NCBI RefSeq assembly: GCF_020180945.1
Contig: NZ_JAIPUL010000002.1
Coordinates: 124,001 to 188,000 of the forward strand
DNA length: 64,000 bases
Direction of reading: 5' to 3'
Source: Lacticaseibacillus kribbianus
GTDB lineage: Bacteria > Bacillota > Bacilli > Lactobacillales > Lactobacillaceae
How positions within the stretch are numbered: the first letter of the stretch is position 1; every line of letters starts with the position of its first letter. Shown here one piece after another: positions 37,742-38,230 of this stretch. The notes beneath the pieces were generated by a model that saw nothing but the letters and a program-made list of their open reading frames with translations, was not told the DNA's origin and did no database searches. The translations under genes were made by a program, and so were the position numbers.

Positions 37742-38230
37742 AAACGGGTTCCACGAGGCAACGCCGGTTCGTCCAGCTAGGTCCGGCACTTGAAGCCAAG
37801 TGCGCTTCAAGTACCAGCCCTACGCTAGCCGACCGGCTAAGCCCGCCTCGTTCCACCCTCTCAAACGGGTTCCGTGGTGCAACGCGGGTGCGCCCAGCTA
37901 GCACCGGCACTCGGGGCAAAGAGCGCCCCAAGCGCCAGTGCTACGCTGGGCGACCCGCTAAGTGCGCACCGCGTCACCCTCTCAAACGGGTTCCAAAGCG
38001 CAACGCGGATGCGTCTAGCTACGCACTGGCACTCGGGCCAAAGAGCGGCCCAAGCGCCAGCGCTAGGCTAGCCGATCCGCTAAGCCCGCGCTTTGTCACC
38101 CTCTCAAACGGGTTCCACGAGGCAACGCGGGAGCGGACTGCCTAGCACTAGCACTCGAAGCAAAGAGCGCTTCAAGCGCTAGTGCTAGGCAGTCCGTCCC
38201 GCTAAGCCCGCCTCGTTCCACCCTCTCTCA
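37742..38230 (+). repeat. Array of four element A copies before the second GH1 gene
   Basis: Copies at about 37742-37861, 37863-37982, 37984-38103 and 38104-38230. Outer arms: ACGAGGC/GCCTCGT, GTGGTGC/GCACCGC, AAAGCGC/GCGCTTT, ACGAGGC/GCCTCGT. Second arms: GCCGGT/ACCGGC, GCGGGT/ACCCGC, GCGGAT/ATCCGC, GCGGGA/TCCCGC. Inner hairpins: TTGAAGC/GCTTCAA, GGGGC/GCCCC, GGGCC/GGCCC, GAAGC/GCTTC. Copy 4 also has a perfect 18-base arm at 38135-38152 and 38178-38195. This array shows the copy-to-copy arm exchange best. Confidence 0.9.

Follow-up and report, generated by a model that had tools for sequence, protein, structure and literature searches.

The attC sites of integrons and the ends of IS200/IS605 elements are recognised as folded single strands, and in both the structure is conserved while the sequence varies. 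According to the accessible part of PMC2229807, the YPAL/RU-2 element of Yersinia is a palindrome of about 168 bp with target duplications of 3 to 26 bp. It is described there as inserting at or next to regions of dyad symmetry, as giving filled and empty sites between close relatives, and as carrying an open frame able to fuse to genes. For the bcr1-bcr3 repeats of the Bacillus cereus group, the accessible parts of PMC6542083, PMC3446304 and PMC2267715 give a length of about 150 nt, a mean of 39 and up to 130 copies for bcr1, an end in TTTAT, and a restriction to one species group. The REPs covered in the accessible portion of PMC3733652 measure 20-40 bp, and their dimers are for the most part in head-to-head or tail-to-tail orientation. 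TAG stop codons are often provided by GTAG REPs, and CGTC REPs lack a dedicated transposase.

The window analysed here, a stretch of 64,000 nt in contig C4 of the 2.79-Mb genome of Lacticaseibacillus kribbianus, holds repeated palindromes that we call family A. An earlier note on this DNA had counted about 17 complete copies at nine sites. Our covariance search on the sense strand (model R1) agrees closely, with 16 full-length copies at nine sites, seven on the minus strand and two (647 and 9611) on the plus strand, together with two shortened copies and one with an internal deletion. The arm pairs quoted in the note are all in place: GCCGGT/ACCGGC, GCGGGT/ACCCGC, GCGGAT/ATCCGC and GCGGGA/TCCCGC as second arm pairs in the array that it cited, GCAAAC/GTTTGC in the same role at 5098-5220, and three outer pairs, among which GTGGTGC/GCACCGC has one mismatch.

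In the cited array, four units of 121-122 nt each follow one another head to tail on the minus strand. Its full copies lie at 37740-37857 (the 3'-most in sense orientation; 123.5 bits), 37861-37978 (126.9 bits), 37982-38100 (132.3 bits, the top score) and 38104-38222 (127.4 bits). The 5' edge of the last touches the ribosome-binding site of a GH1 gene at 38247 (+), and its left flank reads CTCCTTTGAGAGAG before GGTG. The nearest named relative of this gene (38247-39686) is that of Lacticaseibacillus suilingensis, 79% identical, near-self records possibly being excluded. There, a family A copy (L089:9774-9895) stands upstream of the same GH1 gene in the orientation opposite to the kribbianus array, which suggests independent insertion at the same spot.

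The remaining minus-strand sites contain one to three full copies each. At 4975-5093 (123.8 bits) and 5096-5216 (112.6 bits), the former copy is followed in the 3' direction, below 4975, by a stub that corresponds to model positions 2-35, and the latter has its 5' edge against the ribosome-binding site of a called gene at 5238 (+). Full copies at 12584-12701 (122.1 bits) and 12702-12819 (103.1 bits) stand beside a shortened one at 12484-12583 (49.6 bits). The copy at 18186-18303 (119.4 bits), within a family C element, is flanked on both sides by the motif GGAGCCCG, as read by eye. Further full copies are at 27219-27336 (117.3 bits), 33354-33474 (113.6 bits), 33478-33598 (115.9 bits) and 33601-33716 (114.7 bits), the last being the first of its array and having an aligned orthologue in the close relative G010. 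At 53777-53895 (117.7 bits), past a terminator T-run, the left flank reads GCTTTTTTGACCAG before GGCG; a shortened copy lies at 53665-53772 (77.3 bits). On the plus strand, the copy at 647-765 (98.9 bits) adjoins with its 5' edge the stop codon at 640 of a called gene (17-640, +), and that at 9611-9727 (101.1 bits) is joined to flanking family C sequence. The inner hairpin is missing and both outer arms are kept in two copies, one at C7:109077 and one in the window that retains the outer stem only (35898-35946, minus strand, 30.9 bits).

Two other repeats share this window. Family B, about 210-225 nt long with a multi-branched predicted fold, occurs at 1096-1306, 13741-13951, 18750-18960 and 35681-35891 on the plus strand and near 12064 and 45658 on the minus strand. 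The exact family A apical loop, C[GNNCTTT]G, is found in 14 of 22 full family B copies (18 from the own genome and 4 from G010), and this common loop suggests that one factor may recognise both families. Family C, with a length of about 226 nt and a long predicted fold, occurs at 786-1010, 18134-18480 and 35195-35420; it stands after a truncated family A copy at some sites, and one family A copy lies inside it. Two very long open frames occupy 47544-52886 and 58147-63999, and the latter region contains four copies of a 50-nt repeat, spaced 507-549 nt apart, that may represent surface-protein repeat domains.

Beyond the window, a sequence profile gave 243 matches at 104 sites in 75 pieces of the genome (320 kb), which were picked around matches. 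Near-full-length copies make up 203 of the 243 matches, and 97 of the 104 clusters contain one. R1 matched all 150 candidates scored in the own genome, out of 2835 first-look candidates, so the genome copy number is a lower bound. The unit is short, about 119-120 nt (119 model positions), present in high copy, and without a gene of its own, as judged by length and gene calls. Clusters hold one to eight copies, 36 being single and 68 multi-copy, and none of the 68 mixes strands. Adjacent copies are at least 95% alike in 12 of 102 cases; for 38 of the 203 copies, the nearest neighbour at ≥90% identity sits at another site.

As high-copy palindromes near coding regions, these copies resemble the GTAG and CGTC REPs of the accessible portion of PMC3733652. 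They differ in measuring about 119 nt, in standing head to tail only, and in a host genome with no Y1 match. Family A therefore lacks the defining REP/RAYT features that were tested, namely a Y1 gene, a 20-40 bp unit and inverted dimers. The same lack of a Y1 match in the own genome separates it from IS200/IS605 ends, and unlike integron attC sites its copies have no gene cassettes between them.

Family A has a conserved secondary structure. Five window copies folded on the plus strand, one of them also on the minus strand, gave z-scores of -4.9 to -11.5 against shuffles, and RNAalifold predicted 37 pairs from 14 window copies, 25 of them with at least one double change that keeps the pair. 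The fold is one long hairpin whose apical loop is mostly C[GNNCUUU]G (exact in 93 of 150 own copies) and whose internal loops and linkers vary little. In an alignment of the 150 top-scoring copies (147 distinct) out of 366 matches, a total that includes both strands and overlaps, standard pairs fill 97.3% of 5434 cells and two-sided changes occur in 30 of the 37 pairs. The covariation score of these copies is 0.588, compared with 0.188 in 500 shuffles and with 0.05-0.104 when partners are slid by 1-3 columns; this alignment and that of other-genus copies were fitted to the model, which favours structure, whereas the first alignment was not model-fitted.

Because related copies inflate covariation counts, we compared 67 disjoint pairs of close copies, 84 to <99.5% identical. 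These pairs hold 87 two-sided changes that keep pairing, where 7.8 are expected (maximum 18 in 500), and 70 one-sided changes that break it, where 225 are expected. One-sided pair-keeping changes (89 versus 98) and two-sided pair-breaking changes (14 versus 11) are near expectation.

The structure also has a strand. On the modelled strand, which is the minus strand in the cited array, the non-Watson-Crick cells of 200 copies comprise 725 G·T, 42 A·C and 241 others. Full copies score mostly 85-132 bits on this strand, while opposite-strand matches reach 41 at most. Together, the imbalance and the scores indicate that the structure belongs to one particular strand, read in single-stranded form, and they speak against symmetric correction of the arms as its main cause. 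The earlier note had proposed selection for, or copying of, the structure; the first half of that statement is upheld by the excess of pair-keeping two-sided changes in close copies, and the second, taken as symmetric arm-to-arm copying, does not fit the ratio of G·T to A·C. The ratio is similarly skewed past stop codons (201:10), past terminators (222:20) and at antisense starts (140:11), and at antisense-start sites (36 copies), where the gene's mRNA carries the other strand, 94.5% are paired. As the bias is equal in all site classes, its upkeep does not come from the mRNA of the adjoining gene.

The element occupies particular positions beside genes. Judged by gene calls from a codon-usage script made for this analysis, overlap with a called gene exceeds 30 nt at none of the 104 sites. 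Read in the sense direction, the element has its 5' edge directly past a T-run at 29 sites, ≤10 nt past a sense stop codon at 28, ≤30 nt from an antisense start codon at 16 and elsewhere at 27; at the remaining four the edge is unusable. The three named contexts account for 72 of 100 sites, compared with a mean of 16 and a maximum of 26 in 300 runs of random intergenic placement, from which four of the 104 sites with no gene on one side were left out. The 3' edge falls in the two gene-distance classes tested at one site each of 104. At some sites, the stop codon is supplied by the element's own TAGAG or GGGTGA, as read by eye. Two main end types are present, AGAG before with GTTT after and CCAG before with GACGA after. 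They are tied to context: the GTTT end is found at all 15 typed antisense-start sites (one untyped) and the GACGA end at 24 of 28 typed T-run sites (one untyped). Flanking genes lie on the same strand as the element in 113 of 204 cases. A strand preference relative to replication was considered and is weak, the flanking GC skew being positive at 40 of 104 sites.

The arrays carry local sequence between their copies. A single linker type is present in 29 of 35 arrays with at least two linkers. Over 131 linkers, the suffix shared with the left flank of the array to which the linker belongs averages 4.59 nt, compared with 3.82 nt when the flank is taken from another array of that type (maximum 4.12 in 2000). 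Restricting the comparison to 79 linkers whose copies are less than 80% identical to the first copy gives 4.59 and 3.80 (maximum 4.23). This resemblance of linkers to their own left flank suggests that a few local bases are repeated with each copy. The match between right and left flanks is weak (3.73 versus a null of 3.31, maximum 3.55 in 300), and flank comparisons exclude eight of the 104 sites that have no usable flank pair and last full copy.

Past the last full copy, a stub of the element's first 8-59 nt is present at 54 of 96 sites, and among the 35 partial copies of multi-copy clusters, 25 are last copies truncated at the 3' end. Simple insertion neither predicts nor explains these stubs and truncations. 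CRISPR-like array growth at the 5' end is unsupported, as intactness does not differ between the first and the last full copies (paired 0.957 and 0.961). Cores of the same lineage stand in arrays with different ends, as at C5:169383 and C7:141894 (96.6% alike), which indicates that exchange between copies probably happens.

Comparison with G010 reveals gain, loss and turnover. Among 62 orthologous gene pairs, 31 have no family A in either genome. In the 31 orthologous intergenic regions that have it, the element is present in both genomes at 16, in the own genome only at 12 and in G010 only at three, so that presence differs at 15 of the 31. Some of the 'absent' G010 sites retain a 5' stub (L245, L247), which points to losses or replacements and not to clean empty sites. 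This comparison yielded no pair of filled and empty sites in which the target is exactly duplicated; the insert at L221:7125 is flanked by AGGAG on either side, though with additional bases. At C4:157354, where G010 has a single copy, the own genome has three copies and a remnant, in register, and the own stub at C4:239743 ends in a stretch that resembles the G010 site. Near-full copies stand in both genomes at 13 shared sites, and at seven of these no copy pair attains 80% identity, the median for random own-G010 copy pairs being 66%; turnover is thus fast. In six orthologous copy pairs, pairing survived at 19 of the 28 pairs that changed, as it also would if the copies were used at their sites. 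The best pair of recent copies, at different places, is 97.5% alike from AGAGGG to CCCGTTTA with few internal changes and is dissimilar outside. These two borders define the unit.

Relatives of family A occur elsewhere in the Lactobacillaceae. A second covariance model, R2, built on the 150 copies, matched 27 of 30 genus genomes at E ≤ 0.01, with no match in G008, G011 and G019. At E ≤ 1e-4 and with ≤18 candidates scored per genome, it matched 29 of 201 family genomes, eight of the genus and 21 of 12 other genera. In all, this covers 13 of 40 genera, several genomes having a single match. R1 gave no match at E ≤ 1e-3 in 30 genomes outside the genus. We studied 19 loci spread over five other genera, one locus of G027 within the genus, and L089 and L104, which together yielded 36 matches (35 distinct), 29 in other genera and seven in other species of the genus. 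In these 36 matches, 94.1% are paired and two-sided changes occur in 35 of 37 pairs; the covariation score is 0.831 versus 0.190 shuffled, and four of 500 shuffles reach the number of further pair types. The covariation that the earlier note had proposed to check is thus found both genome-wide and in other genomes. Strandedness and occurrence outside the genome are additions to what that note contained.

Ten further loci were added before ends and motif were counted. In G181, G226, G199 and G093, representing three genera, AGAG precedes 27 of 30 copies, a GTTT-type end follows all 30, the motif TAGCCTAG...GTAGCTA is present in 25 and the exact loop in 16. As read from these sequences, ends and motif appear plainly the same in the three genera. 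The exact loop is found in 6 of 14 copies of G181, 3 of 5 of G199, 1 of 5 of G226, 6 of 6 of G093 and 1 of 3 of G148, and is absent in the copies read from G231, G212, G146, G121, G072 and G151; these six genomes and G148 have a partial likeness only. The proposal that loop and ends are identical in every matching genus was dropped after this count. The left flank recurs plainly in three of eight other-genus loci, as AAATCAGAG (L261), CAAAATCAGAG (L259) and GATAGAG (L262), all read by eye, and its recurrence is missing or partial in the other five.

Several observations accompany these loci. At L251, the first copy starts at 373 and a tRNA gene ends at 367. Near-identical copies at separate places in G093 (L282, L283, L284 and L268) share the stretch after CGTTTTA, which leads into a second, variable hairpin and makes a longer version of the element. 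In L268, two TPP riboswitches lie on opposite strands about 110 nt apart (131-236 and 349-439). Plasmid and phage records contain no match to the window array, and plasmid records none to two other-genus versions. Four exact pattern matches in viral contigs are probably due to chance, as none is found at E 0.01 with the covariance model.

To place family A among described families, we searched Rfam and the literature. At gathering score, Rfam has no match in the window, and in eight loci of other genomes it identifies one tRNA and two TPP riboswitches, all outside the family A element; no Rfam family matches family A itself in this material. Relaxed matches in the array correspond to microRNA and other chance hairpins and are far under gathering scores. 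Among the titles and opening lines of abstracts returned by searches of an open-access library on lactobacilli and comparable elements, none describes family A. The accessible portion of PMC3733652 does not mention lactobacilli, and the accessible part of PMC2267715 tabulates a family Lac-1 of L. johnsonii. The view that no family of this build has been described holds at the level of sequence, where none was found, and does not hold for the kind, which is known from YPAL/RU-2 and bcr1.

By appearance, the nearest kind is the palindromic miniature insertion sequence such as YPAL/RU-2 and bcr1-bcr3. With YPAL, as far as the accessible part of its description goes, family A has in common the size class, an internal palindrome, a composition that is not A+T-rich, intergenic positions, targets adjoining dyad symmetry, and filled and empty sites between relatives; a variable-length target duplication, described for YPAL, is only suggested for family A. 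It differs in its unrelated host group and in its head-to-tail arrays with local linkers, and its two coupled end and target types and strand-biased covariation are unmentioned for YPAL in that part. The bcr1-bcr3 repeats, for which the accessible parts of their descriptions propose a recombination-like mobility, are likewise MITE-like, conserved in secondary structure and hosted by Firmicutes. In contrast to these, family A is present in several genera, and head-to-tail arrays and one-strand covariation are unmentioned for bcr in the same parts. Family A is real and strongly supported and, within the open-access material searched, is a new family of a known kind with unusual features.

With moderate confidence, we propose that family A is a non-autonomous palindromic miniature insertion element under selection for single-strand folding, which it would need for its movement. 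One strand would be recognised in single-stranded, folded form, probably as DNA and not as RNA, and a recombinase or transposase would act on it in trans. Insertion would be one-directional, at sites ending in AG beside gene ends, with targets past terminators, at stop codons and against ribosome-binding sites of the other strand. It appears to repeat a few target bases, which would be duplicated at insertion, and later copies could then enter beside earlier ones and build head-to-tail arrays. The covariation would reflect selection on copies able to move and not use at each site. The possibility that these are instead functional structured RNAs, whose sense strand is transcribed within a 3' UTR or from its own promoter and whose copies spread because they are useful, for example in transcript-end protection, ribosome stalling or protein binding, seems to us unlikely, though worth serious weight. 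It would fit the 28 of 104 sites within 10 nt past a sense stop codon, the recurrence of loop and internal motif in three other genera and the pairing kept by orthologous copies (19 of 28 changed pairs in six copy pairs), and about half of the B. cereus bcr repeat copies are transcribed, according to the accessible part of PMC3446304. Yet 29 of 104 sites lie past a terminator T-run and 16 are antisense to the adjoining gene, while the strand bias is the same in all classes; flanking genes share the element's strand in 113 of 204 cases, and at 15 of 31 sites one of two close relatives has the element and the other does not.

Two enzyme families were searched for as the mobiliser. The Y1 transposase domain PF01797 (E ≤ 0.001) has no match in the own genome and is present in 13 of 30 genus genomes; it is also without a match in G001, G010 and G013, though these are rich in family A copies. 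Directional, intergenic insertion and the supply of stop codons, as GTAG REPs often do in the accessible portion of PMC3733652, recall a REP-type element moved by a Y1 (RAYT/IS200-IS605) transposase, and the lack of a PF01797 match in all four of these copy-rich genomes makes this the least probable origin. The reverse transcriptase domain PF00078 (E ≤ 0.001) matches 11 of 30 genus genomes and not the own genome, which counts against a rolling-circle or RNA-copied, SINE-like element. Such an element would start precisely at its 5' edge and leave tandem units of which the last is truncated. It would account for the 3'-truncated last copies that make up 25 of the 35 partial copies in multi-copy clusters, for the 5' stubs at 54 of 96 sites, and for the C4:239743 stub ending in a stretch resembling the G010 site; the linkers, which carry each array's local flank, speak against the shared template, and we regard this origin as highly improbable. 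Equally, cores found in arrays with different ends, the 12 of 102 neighbouring copies at least 95% alike and the 3'-truncated last copies could be by-products of repair, in which template switching corrects the arms against each other, slippage adds tandem copies and gene conversion mixes them, with neither transposition nor selection. Arm correction would act alike on both strands and would not give 725 G·T to 42 A·C, and some intergenic regions have family A in one of two close relatives only, so that this explanation is improbable. Neighbouring genes in genomes of other genera with few copies were considered as autonomous partners; eight of ten proteins are ordinary and two have no Pfam match. 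A wider form of the insertion-element reading can be put forward tentatively, as a possibility. Families A and B, with the same loop, would form a superfamily whose single strand moves in folded form, driven by an enzyme other than Y1 or reverse transcriptase. Its members would insert in one direction at gene ends with a short target copy, under structural selection in several Lactobacillaceae genera, and would represent a third hairpin-mobilising route beside IS200/IS605 and integrons.

How palindromic repeats without a known transposase, such as CGTC REPs, move is an old question that family A makes testable. More than 200 copies have edges that can be read, and their two end types go with two target contexts; gains and losses can be followed in a close relative, and a covariance model picks up related copies in other genera. 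Positioned at stop codons, terminators and ribosome-binding sites, and sometimes supplying the stop codon itself, family A may also shape gene expression in lactic-acid bacteria.
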